Source of the DNA: Alistipes sp.
GTDB taxonomy: Bacteria > Bacteroidota > Bacteroidia > Bacteroidales > Rikenellaceae
Direction: 5' to 3'
Assembly (NCBI GenBank): GCA_009774895.1
Contig: VSOO01000025.1
Location: forward strand, 1 to 12,493
Length of the DNA: 12,493 nucleotides
The translations under genes and the position numbers were made by a program. This document shows positions 1 through 9,816 of this stretch, one piece after another. The stretch's first letter is position 1; the number at the start of each line of letters is the position of its first letter. The notes beneath the pieces were generated by a model, which searched no databases, was not told the DNA's origin, and was given only the letters and a program-made list of their open reading frames with translations.

Positions 1-1767
1 AATCGGATCCCAGGTACCTGACAGTTCGCCCGGGGTAAGCAGCTTATCTGTCCCGGGTTTGTTCCAACCTTCGTCGAACGACGGCACGTGGAGGTAAAGC
101 CCCGTCAGCGGATCAGCCGGGAAGTCGGACGGAAGCTCCGAGAATTGGAGCCGGAGCGTGTTCGGATTGAACGAAAGCACCGCAGCCTTGAAAGCCACCG
201 GCAGGATCTCCGCGCCGTTTTCCGTAATCTGCACATAGGACGAAACGGCCGTGGGCACACCGTCGTTATCGACGCCGCAGGCGATTTTGAGCGTCATGCC
301 TCGCATGGGAGGATTCGACAGCCCCGCAAGCCGTACGCTCCACACCTTGTTCTGCGCGTCCCATGTCTCATTCTCGGTCAGACCGCCGCCGGCCGCATAG
401 TCGGGGAATTCCCAGTTGTCATTCAGACCGAACAGCATGCAGGTCGAAATACCGTTGGCGTTGTACACGAACTTGTTGTCGGGGTCGATGATCGTAACGC
501 GCAGCCATCCGTCCTCGATGTTCGCCTTCAGTGCGAAAGCATCCTCCTCGTATTCGGCGGGCTGGGCTATGTAGTCGTAGGCCACGCAACGCGTGCAGGT
601 CGCACCGTTGGACTCCGTGGCCGAAACCATGAAGTAGATGCGCTCGCCGTCTTCCGGCTTCAGGTAGGGCAGGAACAGCGGCTTGGTGAGCTTGATGTAC
701 TTTCCGTCCTTGGAGGTGAAGAGTTTCTGCTCCGTAACGATCGTGCGGCGCACTTCGCCCCAGTCGTTCTTCACGTCGCGCTCCAGCCACCAGCGGTACT
801 CGACATCGGCCGCGAGCGTCTGGCCCGACTTGAGCTGCGCCTCCGAAAGGTCGGTGTAGGTGCGCACGCGGTAGTCGGGAGCCTTCTGCACGTACTCGAT
901 CGGTGCCGTGCGCTGCAACTGTCCGGGATTCAGACGCATGGGTTCGTCCGACGGGTTCATCAGGCGCGTCATCGAATTGCCGTCGGCATCGGTCACCTTC
1001 ACCGTGAAACCTTTCGAGAAATCGGTGGGCAGCACCACGCAGCGCACCTCGACGGCATCGGATGCCGAGGTGCCCGCCGCAATGTCGCCCTCGACCCGCA
1101 CCCAGGTGCACTCCTGGTAGTTGATGAAGTAGTCGTCGCCATTCTCGCGCACGGCCGGGTCGGCATAGCCCTCGGGCAGGGTCTTGTAGGTCGTAAGGCC
1201 GAAGAGTCCGGAGATGGGATAGCCTGCGGCGTTCACCTCCACGCTGCGCAGCCCGGTCTGGGCCGGAGCATAGACCGGAACGACCAGCATGGCCGCCATC
1301 GGCTTGAAGAGCACGCCCTTATCCGACGCCTTCCAGCGGCCTACCATCGGGAACACCTTCGGCGCGAGACCGTCGGCCACGTATGCCTGCACGTTGGGCA
1401 CGGTCTGCCACAACGCATCCACGCCGTACTTCGAGTCGAACATCGGGTTGAGCGCTCCGACCGTAGCCATGTTGAACGTGGCTCCGGGAATGCTCCGCGG
1501 CTCCTGAAAGCCGAAGAAGCAGCCCAGGGGCGCACCTTCACGGGGTTTGAAGTGGTGCCAGCTGTAACCCGATCCGGTGTATACGGCCAGCGTATCCTCT
1601 AAGGTCCACTCCGGCTTCGTGCCGTCGAGCGCCACGCGCGTGGCCTGCCCGAGGCGCGCCTCGATTGAGTAGACCGTCTCGGTGCCGGAATCGGGAACCA
1701 GCGCCTCGTCCCGGGCGCACGACACGACCGCAAAGGCCGCGGCGCACAATAAAAACAATCTTTTCAT
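1..1767 (-). CDS. Fimbrillin-like surface lipoprotein, module B (3' end cut by window)
   Basis: The frame stays open for 589 codons from the ATG at 1767 to the window edge, so the C-terminus is missing. The N-terminus is a lipoprotein signal: MKR, a hydrophobic stretch and the lipobox VVSC, with the lipidated Cys at residue 17. It is followed by ARDEA, an acidic patch like those linked to surface export in Bacteroidetes. After that comes a pattern typical of Mfa/fimbrillin-like N-terminal domains (IEARL, TRV, a Trp, then an Asp before AVY), followed by PMVGRW, FKPMAAMLVVPVY, GFTVKVTDADG and LNPGQLQ. These blocks recur in the lipoprotein at 1998-3563, so the two are paralogues. The rest looks like several beta-sandwich repeats. 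The protein is probably anchored in the outer membrane as an adhesin or fimbria-type subunit; its ligand is unknown. The start lies 19 nt after the stop of the 52-aa peptide gene, and the next upstream gene rules out a longer start. Family assignment is by motif pattern only. Confidence 0.85.
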   Translation of the reverse strand, partial: MKRLFLLCAAAFAVVSCARDEALVPDSGTETVYSIEARLGQATRVALDGTKPEWTLEDTLAVYTGSGYSWHHFKPREGAPLGCFFGFQEPRSIPGATFNMATVGALNPMFDSKYGVDALWQTVPNVQAYVADGLAPKVFPMVGRWKASDKGVLFKPMAAMLVVPVYAPAQTGLRSVEVNAAGYPISGLFGLTTYKTLPEGYADPAVRENGDDYFINYQECTWVRVEGDIAAGTSASDAVEVRCVVLPTDFSKGFTVKVTDADGNSMTRLMNPSDEPMRLNPGQLQRTAPIEYVQKAPDYRVRTYTDLSEAQLKSGQTLAADVEYRWWLERDVKNDWGEVRRTIVTEQKLFTSKDGKYIKLTKPLFLPYLKPEDGERIYFMVSATESNGATCTRCVAYDYIAQPAEYEEDAFALKANIEDGWLRVTIIDPDNKFVYNANGISTCMLFGLNDNWEFPDYAAGGGLTENETWDAQNKVWSVRLAGLSNPPMRGMTLKIACGVDNDGVPTAVSSYVQITENGAEILPVAFKAAVLSFNPNTLRLQFSELPSDFPADPLTGLYLHVPSFDEGWNKPGTDKLLTPGELSGTWDPI

Positions 1768-1786: not shown

Positions 1787-1945
1787 CTACCACTCCCAGG
1801 GCGTCGAACTGTCGTCGAACTCCTGCATTTCGCCGAACGGCGTCGATACGGCGAAACCCTGTTCGGTCCGCACGCACACCGTGTCGATTGCCGGCGCTAC
1901 GTAGGCCGGCTGCGTCGTCGCCGACGCAATCGAATCTCTTTTCAT
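1787..1945 (-). CDS. 52-aa EQGFAVS peptide, module B
   Basis: This short gene has an ATG at 1945 and a TAG at 1787. It encodes a 52-residue peptide starting MKRDS, with EQGFAVS at residues 28-34 and ending in WEW. I recognise no enzyme or domain, and there is no signal peptide or membrane segment. It aligns without gaps over its full length with the peptide at 3581-3739, with 20 identical positions out of 52. Shared features include Tyr15, Ala17-Pro18, Cys24-Val25, EQGFAVS, Glu39, Gln41, Asp44, Trp50 and Trp52. That conservation and the equal length show it is a real gene and not chance. It sits 19 nt before a fimbrillin-like lipoprotein gene, so translation of the two is probably linked. It starts only 12 nt after the T-run of a strong terminator. 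Possible roles, all inferred, are a chaperone or partner of the lipoprotein, a processed peptide, or a regulatory leader peptide. Confidence 0.8.
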   Translation of the reverse strand: MKRDSIASATTQPAYVAPAIDTVCVRTEQGFAVSTPFGEMQEFDDSSTPWEW

Positions 1946-1957
1946 GATTTTTTCGGG

Positions 1958-1988
1958 AAAAAACGCCCTCCGCCCGAAGCGGAGGACG
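1958..1988 (-). terminator. Strong intrinsic terminator between the two modules
   Basis: On the minus strand a 10-bp stem (1979-1988 with 1964-1973, one G-T pair) closes a 5-nt loop and is followed at once by six T (1963-1958). This is a textbook intrinsic terminator just after the module A lipoprotein stop. Its T-run ends 12 nt before the ATG of the module B peptide, so it lies between the modules and no promoter fits after it. It may act as a partial terminator that sets the ratio of module A to module B expression. Confidence 0.85.
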
Positions 1989-1997
1989 CAAAATTGA

Positions 1998-3563
1998 TTA
2001 CTTCGTATAAACGACTTCGTTGGACACATGGTCGGGCAGACCGTCTCCGTCGTCATCGCAGCAGCCTACCTGTATGTAGTGTTCGCCCGGATACATCAGT
2101 GCCGGAGTGGTCATGGAGATCGTACCGGCCGTCGCGTCGTACGTTGCCGACAGGAATCCCGCGGCATTCTGCATCGACCAGTCGTTCTTTTTGTCCACCA
2201 GCACCCAGGTCTTGTAATTCTCCCAGGTAAACGCCTCGGGGTTCTCCACCGTGATCGTAAGCTTCATACCCGTATAGGTTACGGAAATCTGAATCGTAGC
2301 CTCGCCCGTTTCGACTTTCGGCGTATAATAGATGAATTCGTACTGACGGGTGTAAACCGAACCGTCCTTACGTGCGGCGATGAGCTCCAGACGGCACTTG
2401 TCGCCCTGCGAGAGGTAGTGTGCGACGTCGGCCATCCGTTCGTGCAGCAGGATCGGCGCATCGGCCGCCAGCGTCACCTCCTCCGCCGTCTCATTGACCG
2501 GGAGCCAGCTGTCGCCTGCCGGGCGGTAAAGCTTGATGGAGTAGGTCGTGGCAGCCTCCACCTGATCCGGATCGGCCGGCGTCACGGCGATCTTGCCCTG
2601 GTCGTCGGGATCCACGGCGAGCGTGAGCGCCGGTGCGAGCTGGTTGTAGAGCAGCGGCTCGAAAGCCTGCATCTGGCCCGGACGCAGCGCCAGCTCGGTC
2701 TCCGATGCGGGCTTTTTCACGGTCATCGTGCTGCCCTCGGCATCGGTGATCTTGAGCGTGAAGCCGTCGCGGTAGTCGCCCGCAGCGACCGCCATATAGA
2801 GCTCCGCAGCCGTCTCCGCCTGGGTGCCCGGACGCATTTCGCCCTTCAGCACCACGCGTTTGCTGCCCTCCTCGTCCGCAACGACGTACGTATCGACCTG
2901 CTCGGCCGAGGGATCGGCTACGTTGTAGTTCTCGGGCAGGTCGAGGTTGTTCAGGGCCACCTTACCCGTCATGTTGCGCACGGGCGAGGTGAGCTCCACC
3001 TGTTCGATCACCACGCCCTCCTCGGCCACATAGAGCGGAATGCGGAAGACGCCTGCCACGGGCTTGAACATCACCTGCGCATCGTCCTCAAGCCAGCGGC
3101 CGATCAGCGGCAGGGCGCCCTTGGCGACGGAACCCTCGGTGTAGGTCTGCTCCTCGGGTACGGTCATCGCAATGCGCGAACGCTCGGGTGCACCCATCGG
3201 AGCGCCCTGGTACACGGCGACATAATAATCCTGTCGGTAAACGGGTTCGGGGGCGTCGGTGCCCGAAAAAATACCGGTTTGTCTGATTGTCTGGCCGTCC
3301 TGCTCGACAGTGCGGGTTTCGTAGACGGCCCAATTCGACGAAAGGACATAGACGCAGTCCTCGTCGTCCCACTTCAGATCGGTGCCCTCGATGTGGACAC
3401 GGGTGGGGTTGGAAAGCTGTGCTTCAATTACATATTCCCGATTTTCGGAGGGGGGGGGAATTTCACCGTTGCCAATCGCCTCTTTGGCGCCGTCGCAGGC
3501 CGTGGCAGCCAGGGCCAGACCGGCGCATCCCAGGAAATGGAGAGATTTCTTCATGACATTCAT
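1998..3563 (-). CDS. Fimbrillin-like surface lipoprotein, module A, with C9 tract
   Basis: The gene encodes 521 aa from the ATG at 3563. A second in-frame ATG at 3554 gives 518 aa and a more typical MKK start. I chose 3563 because the 17-nt gap to the peptide stop resembles the 19 nt in module B. The signal peptide ends in an ATAC lipobox (Cys23). A Gly/Pro linker follows, in which nine consecutive C bases encode Pro36-Pro38. The next part resembles Mfa/fimbrillin-like N-terminal domains: IEAQL, TRV, a Trp and acidic residues, a FSG block, and later PLIGRW, FKPVAGVFRIPLY, GFTLKITDAEG and RPGQMQ. The C-terminal half looks like fibronectin- or BACON-like beta domains (for example TYSIKLYRP and YEFIYYTPK). 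It is a paralogue of the lipoprotein at 1-1767 and is likely surface exposed in the outer membrane. A one-base change in the C tract would end translation after about 44-46 residues, so it is a candidate phase-variable gene. The family call comes from motif pattern alone. Confidence 0.88.
   Translation of the reverse strand: MNVMKKSLHFLGCAGLALAATACDGAKEAIGNGEIPPPSENREYVIEAQLSNPTRVHIEGTDLKWDDEDCVYVLSSNWAVYETRTVEQDGQTIRQTGIFSGTDAPEPVYRQDYYVAVYQGAPMGAPERSRIAMTVPEEQTYTEGSVAKGALPLIGRWLEDDAQVMFKPVAGVFRIPLYVAEEGVVIEQVELTSPVRNMTGKVALNNLDLPENYNVADPSAEQVDTYVVADEEGSKRVVLKGEMRPGTQAETAAELYMAVAAGDYRDGFTLKITDAEGSTMTVKKPASETELALRPGQMQAFEPLLYNQLAPALTLAVDPDDQGKIAVTPADPDQVEAATTYSIKLYRPAGDSWLPVNETAEEVTLAADAPILLHERMADVAHYLSQGDKCRLELIAARKDGSVYTRQYEFIYYTPKVETGEATIQISVTYTGMKLTITVENPEAFTWENYKTWVLVDKKNDWSMQNAAGFLSATYDATAGTISMTTPALMYPGEHYIQVGCCDDDGDGLPDHVSNEVVYTK
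3450..3458 (-). repeat. Homopolymer tract of nine C in lipoprotein gene
   Basis: There are nine consecutive G on the plus strand, read as three CCC codons in the lipoprotein gene, 13-15 codons after the lipidated Cys. With eight C the frame meets TAA about six codons after the tract; with ten C it meets TGA about eight codons after. Either change abolishes the mature protein. Runs of this length are known slippage sites in phase-variable surface genes; that this one varies is inference. Confidence 0.9.
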
Positions 3564-3580
3564 TGTTTTAGACGTTGTTC

Positions 3581-3739
3581 TTACCAGGTCCAGACACCAT
3601 CTCCTTCGTCGAGACCCTGGATCTCGTTCGCCTCCATCGAGACGGCGAAACCCTGCTCGGCATTCACGCAGCACACCGACATCTCGGGTGCGGCGTAAGA
3701 TTGCGGACGGAAACCCTCCGCACGTACTTCGTACTTCAT
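3581..3739 (-). CDS. 52-aa EQGFAVS peptide, module A
   Basis: This short gene has an ATG at 3739 and a TAA at 3581. The 52-residue product starts MKYEV and has AAPEM at 16-20, a Cys-Cys pair at 23-24, EQGFAVS at 28-34 and WTW at the end. It matches the module B peptide residue for residue in length, with 20 of 52 identities and no gaps. No signal peptide, membrane segment or known domain is visible. It is the first gene after the promoter at 3892-3923, and its start is preceded by an AT-rich stretch without a Shine-Dalgarno site, as is usual in Bacteroidetes. The lipoprotein gene begins 17 nt (or 26 nt) after its stop, so it probably shares the transcript. The function is not known. The repeated pairing with fimbrillin-like lipoproteins suggests a linked role in their expression, export or assembly, or a separate peptide product. 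Confidence 0.82.
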   Translation of the reverse strand: MKYEVRAEGFRPQSYAAPEMSVCCVNAEQGFAVSMEANEIQGLDEGDGVWTW

Positions 3740-8103: not shown

Positions 8104-9816
8104 CTACGAAAATTTGCGTTCGAGCAGTTCGATCAGTCGCTTCGCCCCGTCGCTGCTGGGGTTCCACACATGGTTTTCGGCGATGTAGACGATGCAGTCG
8201 TCCAGATCGGCGCAGGCGTTCAGCGCGTCGATCGTGCGCTCGTACTGCACGGAGTCGCCGCCGAAAAGGTCGCGGATCAGCAGGAATTTGTCGTTCAGCC
8301 CGATCGCTGCGCGCAGGTCGGTCACCGCCTCGCCGCGCGCCAGCTCCGACGCCGCATCGCGCGGCGCCGCGATCGTGTCGGCCAACGTGCGCACGTCGTG
8401 GTTGAGCACATCGCCCAGCACCGCGGCCTCCGGTTCGCCGGCCGCATCGCGCATCGCCGCCTCCACGCGCGCTCCCGCAGCATGGGGCGCTCCGGCCTCG
8501 CCGCGCACCGGTTCGTCGTCGAGAATTTCGATCTCCTCGATCACCAACTCGTCGCCGGCATCGCCGAGCGACGAGGCGGCCGCATCGTACGCCTCGCTTC
8601 CGACGCTCCGCGACGCTTCCTGCCGCCCGTTTTCCTCCCTGGCTTCCTCTCCGGCCTCCTCTCCGGCCTCCGACACGGCACCGGCACCGCCCGGCACATC
8701 CGCCGGACGCGGTCCGTCCTCACACGCACCGCACCGCTCTCCGACCGTCTGCGGGGCTTCGGCCACGGGCGCTTCGGCAGGCTCCCCGCACGACACCGCA
8801 GCCGGGTCGTACGTACGCTCCTCCATTCCGATGCCCTCCTGCGGCGCCTCGGGCCCGGGCTCGGCATCGACCTCGATGACCACCCATTCGTCCCCGGACG
8901 AACCGGACGCCGATGCGTCCGACAGCTCCACCGCCTCCGGTTTTTCCGATTTTTCCGGACCGCACGCCGGACGCACCTCGTCCGCAGCCTCCGGCACATC
9001 GTCGTAGAGCGACAGCAGCAGCCGCTGCTTCTGGCGGCGACGCATCCGCTCCGCCTCGGCCCCGGCAGCCTCCTCCGGAGCCGGCACGCGCTCCCCGGCG
9101 AAAAATCGGGACACCGGCGGCTCCGGCTCCGCGACGCGTCCGGGATTCTCCGGTTCCGCAACGCACCCGGTCTGCTCCGGCTCTGCGGCGTGTCCGGGGT
9201 TCTCCGGCTCCGCGGTGCATTCCGTCTCGCCCGACGCCGCTTCCGGTGCTGCGGCCTCCGTAGCGGAACCATCCGATGCTTGCGCAACGCTCGCCTCGGA
9301 CGACTCCGCAGCGGGCTCCTCTGCCTCGGAGACTTCCGATGCTTCTGCGGACACCTCCGATGCCTCCGCGACGGGCGCATCGGACGCTGCCACCGCATAC
9401 GACGGCGCCTCCGCAGCCGGACGGTCCTCCGCCTCTTGCGCAGCACATTCCTCCGGCACTTCAGCAGCAGCACGGCACTCCGTCACAGCCGCATCCGGTT
9501 CTCCGGCCGGCCGCGACAGCTCCGCAACGGGCTGCCGCATACCCCCTGCGGGATCGCCAGAGGCCGCGCAATCAGCCCCATGCAGCACCTCCGGAACCGG
9601 CCGCGGCGTCGCATCGGACACCGGTTTCTCCGGGGCCGGCACGGATGCCGGCGCGGGCTCCGCAACCGCGATTCCGGTCTGGAGCGCCTCGTAAAGCATG
9701 CGCAGTTTTTCGAGCGCCAGGTCGCGCTCGATCGGCGCCACGGCACCGGCGGCCTCCCAGCCGTCGGCCCAGGCGGCGAGCCGTCGCAACACGGCCTGCA
9801 TATCATTCAGTGTCAT
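8104..9816 (-). CDS. Acidic low-complexity 570-aa protein with conserved ends
   Basis: The product is 570 aa from the ATG at 9816, which follows a TATCTTTG promoter element by about 20 nt; longer starts would run through that promoter. Three parts are visible. Residues 1-50 form a helical domain (MTLNDMQAVL, LEKLRMLYEAL). Residues 51 to about 465 are an Ala/Glu/Pro/Ser-rich, strongly acidic and probably disordered linker. Within it are four 9-residue repeats around 196-232, a basic patch RMRRRQKQR at 257-265, and two similar acidic-hydrophobic motifs (GDEWVVIEVD at 308-317 and GDELVIEEIE at 421-430). Residues 499-570 form a compact C-terminal domain (AIGLNDKFLLIRDLF, TIDALNACADLDD, VWNPSSDGAKRLIELLERKF), which I recall as conserved in Bacteroidetes hypothetical proteins. 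There is no signal peptide or membrane segment, so it is probably cytoplasmic. It heads the operon. Its function is unknown; a scaffold or adaptor role would suit its layout. Confidence 0.85.
   Translation of the reverse strand: MTLNDMQAVLRRLAAWADGWEAAGAVAPIERDLALEKLRMLYEALQTGIAVAEPAPASVPAPEKPVSDATPRPVPEVLHGADCAASGDPAGGMRQPVAELSRPAGEPDAAVTECRAAAEVPEECAAQEAEDRPAAEAPSYAVAASDAPVAEASEVSAEASEVSEAEEPAAESSEASVAQASDGSATEAAAPEAASGETECTAEPENPGHAAEPEQTGCVAEPENPGRVAEPEPPVSRFFAGERVPAPEEAAGAEAERMRRRQKQRLLLSLYDDVPEAADEVRPACGPEKSEKPEAVELSDASASGSSGDEWVVIEVDAEPGPEAPQEGIGMEERTYDPAAVSCGEPAEAPVAEAPQTVGERCGACEDGPRPADVPGGAGAVSEAGEEAGEEAREENGRQEASRSVGSEAYDAAASSLGDAGDELVIEEIEILDDEPVRGEAGAPHAAGARVEAAMRDAAGEPEAAVLGDVLNHDVRTLADTIAAPRDAASELARGEAVTDLRAAIGLNDKFLLIRDLFGGDSVQYERTIDALNACADLDDCIVYIAENHVWNPSSDGAKRLIELLERKFS
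9121..9228 (-). repeat. Four tandem 27-nt repeats in low-complexity gene
   Basis: Four adjacent 27-nt units begin at 9121, 9148, 9175 and 9202, each starting CTCCGG on the plus strand. They encode 9-residue repeats of the type NPGxxAEPE in the acidic linker of the 570-aa protein. The units differ at several third positions and at a few residues, so the repeat is not recent. Changes in copy number would stay in frame and alter only linker length. Confidence 0.8.

Follow-up and report, generated by a model that had tools for sequence, protein, structure and literature searches.

Matched peptide and lipoprotein genes at the locus

We analyzed computationally a 12,493 nt stretch of DNA from Alistipes sp. 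(contig VSOO01000025.1; hereafter "the window") that contains two genes for short peptides, p2 and p1, each directly upstream of a gene for a fimbrillin-like lipoprotein. The genes and features concerned are as follows.

3581..3739, minus strand: peptide p2, 52 aa; leader YAAPEM...EQGFAVS, tail MEANEIQGLDEGDGVWTW
3680..3697, minus strand: YxxPx[ILVMF] family motif of p2, residues 15-20; position by counting
3638..3640, minus strand: Ser34 of p2 (19 residues after the motif Tyr, Y+19), putative modification site proposed from Ser/Thr conservation in 126 of 127 peptides
1998..3554, minus strand: fimbrillin-like lipoprotein 1, 518 aa; other possible start at 3563
1963..1989, minus strand: terminator-like hairpin in the interval between lipoprotein 1 and p1, 12 pairs; consensus match only
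1787..1945, minus strand: peptide p1, 52 aa; leader YVAPAI...EQGFAVS, tail TPFGEMQEFDDSSTPWEW
1886..1903, minus strand: YxxPx[ILVMF] family motif of p1, residues 15-20; position by counting
1844..1846, minus strand: Ser34 of p1 (Y+19), putative modification site proposed from conservation in the family
1..1767, minus strand: fimbrillin-like lipoprotein 2, 589 codons visible; truncated by the window edge at base 1

A sequence-only reading of the window had singled out the two peptides as a matched pair, each 17–19 nt before one of two paralogous lipoprotein genes, and our analysis bears this out. The peptides align without gaps, are identical at 20 of 52 positions, share EQGFAVS at residues 28–34, and end in WxW. 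In 100,000 shuffles of one peptide, the mean number of identities was 3.2 (standard deviation 1.7) and the maximum was 12. The gap between p2 and its partner measures 17 nt if counted to the first ATG and 26 nt if counted to the MKKSL ATG, and the gap between p1 and lipoprotein 2 is 19 nt. The two lipoproteins align at 27% over 538 columns (E 1e-33), and, as read from their sequences, both carry a signal sequence and a lipobox, with an N-terminus that is fimbrillin-like (TRV...W..ED).

No signal sequence was seen in the peptides. Neither they nor the lipoproteins have an above-cut-off match in Pfam or NCBIfam, in agreement with the earlier statement that the peptides contain no known domain. 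Structure prediction for the peptide yielded no fold (pLDDT, a per-residue confidence score, of 67; no strand and no long helix). The window has no match in Rfam, a phage search gave no match, and a single PHROGs match (E 0.044) was not used. No maturation genes were found in the window or beside most of the pairs read elsewhere, and a pattern search of 80 loci surrounding the DUF389 gene found no such pair. The closest relationship of the window's own DUF389 protein is to Alistipes. Three terminator-like hairpins were found in the window, as compared to 1.9 expected from shuffles. The hairpin at 1963–1989 stops 17 nt ahead of the p1 start, and so a promoter for p1 alone would have little space.

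A widespread peptide family encoded next to lipoprotein genes

A protein search with p2 alone returned only five matches, all near-identical; a homologue at 98% bears the label uncultured Alistipes. A profile made from p1 and p2 had matches in five of 10 Alistipes-type genomes (E<=10), and a contig search with the same profile gave 44 stretches, none of which was confirmed. Relatives at nine of 12 matched places, from three genomes, were used to build a second profile, which had matches in 119 of the 151 genomes in a sample of the Alistipes genus (E<=0.1). With a third profile of 28 rows (A3), up to 28 peptide places were found in a single genome (E<=1). In a broader sample of Bacteroidales, 14 of 295 genomes had a match at E<=0.01, G003 among them. 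We found no description of these peptides in the literature, where coverage was thin for subscription papers.

The sequence-only reading had suggested that the pairing is fixed and forms a functional unit, and had proposed a profile search recording the next gene each time. That search shows that the pairing extends well beyond the window, and that homologues are not scattered without a link to lipoprotein genes. In six genomes, 87 listed places yielded 75 that passed our filters, the other 12 being duplicates or filter failures. A lipoprotein gene lies behind 71 of the 74 peptides with downstream room (70 by a home-made lipobox detector, and one, L191, by eye), as compared to a background rate for this detector of 20/126 genes. 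The gap between the two genes in Alistipes has a median of 19.5 nt (range -17 to +65; n=66). A wider set of loci contains 137 distinct peptides that pass E<0.05 and length filters. For 110 of the 135 with downstream room, a strict lipobox is encoded within 300 nt downstream, and several of the misses are lipoproteins by eye. A frequent arrangement, also judged by eye, is a promoter-like motif followed by the peptide gene as the first gene; the scan used the Bacteroidetes promoter motif. At L117 (1295-1641), two tandem peptides, one of Prevotella-like type and one with GFAVS, precede a PF13149 lipoprotein.

Fimbrillins are processed at an N-terminal arginine. A [T/S]R site is present in 102 of 110 partner lipoproteins, and in 99 of these it lies 21–38 residues past the lipobox Cys. 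Lipoprotein 1 has both the lipoprotein signal and the N-terminal Arg site, and no Pfam match at E<=1, hence none to the Pfam fimbrillin models. PF13149 was matched by one of 10 partners scanned elsewhere (E 1e-17). A search of PDB sequences returned nothing for PqqD (see below) or the lipoprotein profile.

A fixed-register leader motif

The N-terminal part of the peptides carries a motif in a fixed register. YxxP is present in 136 of 137 profile-found peptides, and YxxPx[ILVMF] in 132 (shuffles: mean 3, maximum 8). Both the Tyr and the GFAxS Gly could be located in 130 peptides, and in 127 of these they are 15 residues apart. In these 127, Glu occupies Y+13 in 125, Gly Y+15 in 125, Phe Y+16 in 120, and Ser or Thr Y+19 in 126.

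YxxP is a characterized recognition motif of lasso peptide leaders, and W/Y/LxxP-type motifs are bound by recognition elements of the PqqD kind, according to the accessible portion of PMC12710340. The bsf lasso cluster, in the part of PMC10368454 available to us, encodes such an element, a kinase and a nucleotidyltransferase, and its precursor has YxxPxL at -17 to -12; HprK-like BsfK, with the help of PqqD-like BsfB1, phosphorylates Ser3. With Tyr at -17, Ser3 of the bsf precursor is Y+19, the position of the conserved Ser in our family.

We considered a lasso ring for these peptides and rejected it. The Thr (rarely Ile or Val) expected at leader position -2 is not found, since Y+15 is Gly in 125 of 127 peptides, and Asp or Glu at core positions 7–9, where a ring acceptor would lie, occurs at frequencies of only 0.29, 0.30 and 0.21, with no enrichment over the rest of the tail. 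A lasso-precursor model, NF033524, was touched by two of 28 A3 members (best E 0.0078). There was no NCBIfam match to the GG-leader family for p1, p2 or the 28 A3 members.

Selection on the peptides, and their variable tails

The ratio of nonsynonymous to synonymous differences (pN/pS) supports the conclusion that the peptides are coding and under selection at the protein level. Over 16 reciprocal-best pairs from genomes G104 and G037, peptide pN/pS is 0.335 (leader 0.413, tail 0.232), and that of the lipoproteins is 0.394. Tail similarity is 0.68 where the lipoproteins are close and 0.18 where they are distant; between distant ones, similarity of the N-terminal part is 0.36. The tail is not a copy of a segment of its own lipoprotein: this was ruled out by a mean cognate rank of 0.61.

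Tail-like sequences also occur at the ends of larger proteins. At L203 (an open reading frame [ORF] ending at about 1475) and L233 (a lipoprotein of 308 aa, encoded upstream of the peptide), the C-termini resemble peptide tails; the resembling pairs are EGDWGANTPGGSI / EGDWGTNTPGGAI and IGIGGWDSDGEDY / IGIGGWDSDENEY, with synonymous differences in the DNA. Protein-tail matches scoring >=42 numbered 16, some of them trivial, as compared to 0–3 with shuffled tails. For L232/L227, L215/L219 and L223/L214, pS of the peptide genes is 0.04–0.13, well below the 0.31–0.49 of the lipoprotein genes behind them, which perhaps reflects recombination near the peptide.

A sister family downstream of its partners

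A sister family is present in 13 of 15 genomes of a Prevotella-like genus. It aligns with A3 over 26 N-terminal (leader) columns (hhalign, 97%, E 9e-11). Y+19 is occupied by Ser in 15 of its 16 rows, and by Ser or Thr in 23 of 25 loci. The 25 loci are the usable distinct peptides among 30 returned. In 22 of the 25, a large ORF lies within 120 nt upstream of the peptide, and all 22 of these ORFs end in a tail that we take to be like the sorting domain of the type IX secretion system (T9SS), as judged by a hand-made pattern that was loosened after the tails had been seen (the first version caught 6/22). The background rate of 6/466 comes mostly from genomes other than the Prevotella-like ones. 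GFAxS peptides at L313, L334 and L335 also come after sorting-domain-like proteins.

Co-occurrence with PqqD and NTP_transf_5

Two features of a precursor that depends on a recognition element, a recognition motif in fixed register and a recognition element in the same genomes, are found in the genus sample. A third, a precursor gene adjoining maturation genes, is seen at L366 (see below); it is not seen in the window or in the eight genus PqqD loci read. PF05402 (PqqD) scores above cut-off in 114 of the 151 genus genomes: it is found in 112 of the 119 genomes with the peptide and is absent from 30 of the 32 without (peptide only, 7; PqqD only, 2; naive Fisher 1.1e-22). The nucleotidyltransferase family NTP_transf_5 is found in 101 genomes, 99 with the peptide and two without; 20 genomes have the peptide without NTP_transf_5, and 30 have neither (p 4e-16). 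Peptide, PqqD and NTP_transf_5 occur together in 97 genomes, and NTP_transf_5 is found in none of the 30 genomes without both peptide and PqqD.

Because the genomes are related, we placed 29 of 30 chosen genomes on a tree computed from a ParE/GyrB-like protein, omitting G019, for which only a paralogue was found. The choice was restricted to genomes in which peptide and PqqD agree, which leaves nine discordant genomes outside. G004 and G005 were scored negative from absence among the listed matches; their tree neighbors are negatives. The negative label requires six changes, four of them forced by well-supported branches, and so the absence of peptide and PqqD is not one loss. One negative genome, G023, has an assembly smaller than those of its kin. 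G002, which is labeled as a strain rather than a metagenome-assembled genome, was negative for peptide, PqqD and NTP_transf_5; hence, not every absence has to stem from missing contigs.

At one locus, L366, these genes are clustered, in the order YTSPEIEVVEVIEYGFAAS peptide, kinase-like protein, signal-peptidase-like protein, PqqD, NTP_transf_5 and ATP-binding cassette (ABC) exporter. PqqD (E 1.5e-10) is above cut-off and NTP_transf_5 has E 4e-33; the kinase-like protein (287 aa) matches TIGR04352 far below cut-off, and the signal-peptidase-like protein (149 aa) is also below cut-off. A B2 peptidase and a cyclase were not among the Pfam hits of the six L366 proteins; whole genomes were not searched for them. 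Outside the genus, pattern searches found a P-loop ORF other than ABC near PqqD in 11 of 21 loci from peptide-positive genomes, as compared to two of nine others, and an S26-like ORF in 5/21 and 1/9, respectively.

Two other contexts of PqqD were observed. At L399-L406, read by eye, a stand-alone PqqD gene precedes an ORF that is TonB-receptor-like; the two are often separated by a His/Cys-rich ORF and followed by an HMA-like one. In three genomes (L457, L458, L459), a second PqqD with NTP_transf_5 lies inside exopolysaccharide clusters; two of these clusters, those of L457 and L458, also include an HprK-like kinase.

Elsewhere in the window, a frame of 568 aa at 8104-9810 (minus strand) has a high content of Ala, Glu and Pro and no Pfam match at E<=0.001; methyltransferase, ROK and phosphomannose-isomerase genes lie nearby.

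Discussion

What is the function of these peptides? On balance, we lean toward the view that they are leader-tagged precursors of the kind found among ribosomally synthesized and post-translationally modified peptides (RiPPs), recognized by PqqD, modified in trans, and each partnering one surface protein. The first ~33 residues would be the leader (YxxPx[ILV]...E.GFA.S in fixed register), and its docking partner would be a recognition element of the PqqD family, the gene for which lies at another place in the genome. The nucleotidyltransferase and, in some genomes, an HprK-like kinase would act in trans with PqqD, and their target is probably the conserved Ser/Thr at Y+19 (Ser34 in p1 and p2). 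The acidic, aromatic tail, which varies between loci and is kept between orthologues, may make the mature peptide specific to the surface protein with which it shares an operon. Peptide and lipoprotein would then be made and used together, in assembly, display or choice of the surface protein. The sequence-only reading had offered three possibilities, namely cytoplasmic partner, processed-peptide precursor and translated leader. The precursor gains most from the YxxP register, the co-occurrence with PqqD and the nucleotidyltransferase, and L366, with processing itself putative.

Several observations weigh against a modified precursor. The motif percentages are partly a matter of ascertainment because the profiles that found the peptides already contain Y, P and GFA.S; the spread of the leader over paralogues with unlike tails is not an effect of this kind. 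A second set for pN/pS, all pairs among six orthologues, inverts the order of leader and tail (leader 0.214, tail 0.355, lipoprotein 0.351). Of the 119 peptide genomes, seven have no PqqD match and 20 no NTP_transf_5; the Fisher values ignore kinship among the genomes, and the PqqD tally covers the 151 genus genomes, which do not include the window's own. PqqD does not adjoin the peptides: in eight genus loci read by eye it lies ahead of the TonB-receptor-like ORF, and so may serve something else, and no kinase-like gene was seen next to these eight PqqDs. Outside the genus, PqqD is found in 11/13 and 12/13 peptide-positive genomes and also in 11/20 without profile matches, and a pattern search ~1.5 kb to each side of 30 PqqD loci found no YxxP peptide. 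The claimed link to lipoprotein genes is general and not exclusive. No lipoprotein gene directly follows about ten relatives (L125, L126, L139, L141, L146, L148, L149, L162, L194, L226) or three divergent ones (L133, L135, L144). Among 64 fimbrillin-like N-termini in G104 and G037 (E<=1e-7), 17 are without a detected peptide; the share of 47/64 that are paired is inflated and partly circular since most of the lipoproteins that went into the N-terminus profile are paired ones from these two genomes.

An alternative explanation is that the peptides are unmodified cytoplasmic partners, acting as a chaperone, adaptor or regulator, with YxxP merely part of a binding motif. The lack of a visible signal sequence, a tail that is conserved in orthologues and tracks the lipoprotein, and the scarcity of maturation genes in the window and beside most pairs are all consistent with such a role. 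Nonetheless, we consider it rather unlikely, given the fixed register of YxxPx[ILV] with Ser/Thr at Y+19, the co-occurrence with PqqD and NTP_transf_5, and the L366 cluster. It is improbable that the peptides are translated leaders, in which translation of the short ORF would control how the next gene is expressed, by coupling or attenuation, and the residues would matter little, or only for ribosome stalling. The close gaps in Alistipes, the frequent position of the peptide as first gene after a promoter-like motif, and the terminator-like hairpin ahead of p1 fit a leader of this type. However, a plain translational leader is disfavored because in relatives the order is the reverse, with the peptide after its partner (22 of 25 Prevotella-like loci, and L313, L334 and L335) and because conservation is at the protein level, tail included; the co-occurrence with PqqD also speaks against it. 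This suggestion of the sequence-only reading is thus weakened. Lastly, operon sharing could be only historical, with PqqD and NTP_transf_5 following lineage or some other trait. PqqD does lie in an unrelated-looking operon, the genomes are related, and G023, one of the absent cases, has a small assembly. We regard this explanation as very improbable in view of the 71/74 pairing, the at least four forced changes on the tree, and the absence of NTP_transf_5 from the 30 genomes that lack both peptide and PqqD.

The known systems closest to our proposed precursors are not identical to them. Going by the available part of PMC10368454, bsf (BsfA/B1/K/N) shares a YxxPxL leader, a discrete PqqD-type recognition element, a nucleotidyltransferase, an HprK-like kinase (here, in some genomes) and Ser/Thr at the distance of Ser3 from Tyr. 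In contrast, our family has no ring-acceptor pattern and has Gly rather than Thr/Ile at -2, which is why we do not file it with the lasso peptides; there is no B2 or cyclase among the L366 Pfam hits, and the precursors are scattered beside surface-protein genes, with PqqD elsewhere. The HPr-rel-A system (TIGR04352 HprK_rel_A, TIGR04353 PqqD_rel_X), which we compared by NCBIfam model names only, is touched by the kinase-like genes of L366, L457 and L458 and by the L458 PqqD, but all scores are far below cut-offs. The GG-leader precursors of Bacteroidales that are associated with PCAT transporters are likewise short leader-plus-core peptides; our peptides have no GG-leader match, and YxxP, Alistipes, fimbr and lipoprotein are unmentioned in the portion of the PMC10352776 text that was accessible. 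The partner proteins resemble type V (Fim/Mfa) fimbrillins in their lipobox, their [T/S]R site, PF13149 in one of 10, and perhaps the structural matches of lipoprotein 1. They differ in that most of them are encoded just behind a gene for a leader-tagged peptide. Our literature searches, which did not extend to the text of the fimbrillin papers listed, found no description of such a gene.

Fimbrillin-like lipoproteins make up a large share of the surface repertoire in the gut Bacteroidales seen here, and our data hint at an undescribed way to make or control surface proteins. A peptide tied to a far-off recognition factor would join RiPP maturation to surface display; we found no prior joining of the two in the literature. 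More tentatively, we propose, as a possibility somewhat short of probable, that one PqqD-type element serves dozens of scattered peptides, the modified forms of which mark, select or help to assemble their own surface adhesin. The surface proteins of such a tag system would be fimbrillin-like lipoproteins in Alistipes and sorting-domain-like proteins in the Prevotella-like genomes. If true, this would be a use of RiPP chemistry by the cell for displaying its surface proteins, instead of for producing a secreted natural product, and it would offer a testable function to stand-alone PqqD, to NTP_transf_5, and to many unnamed ORFs of 40–60 aa in Bacteroidales.

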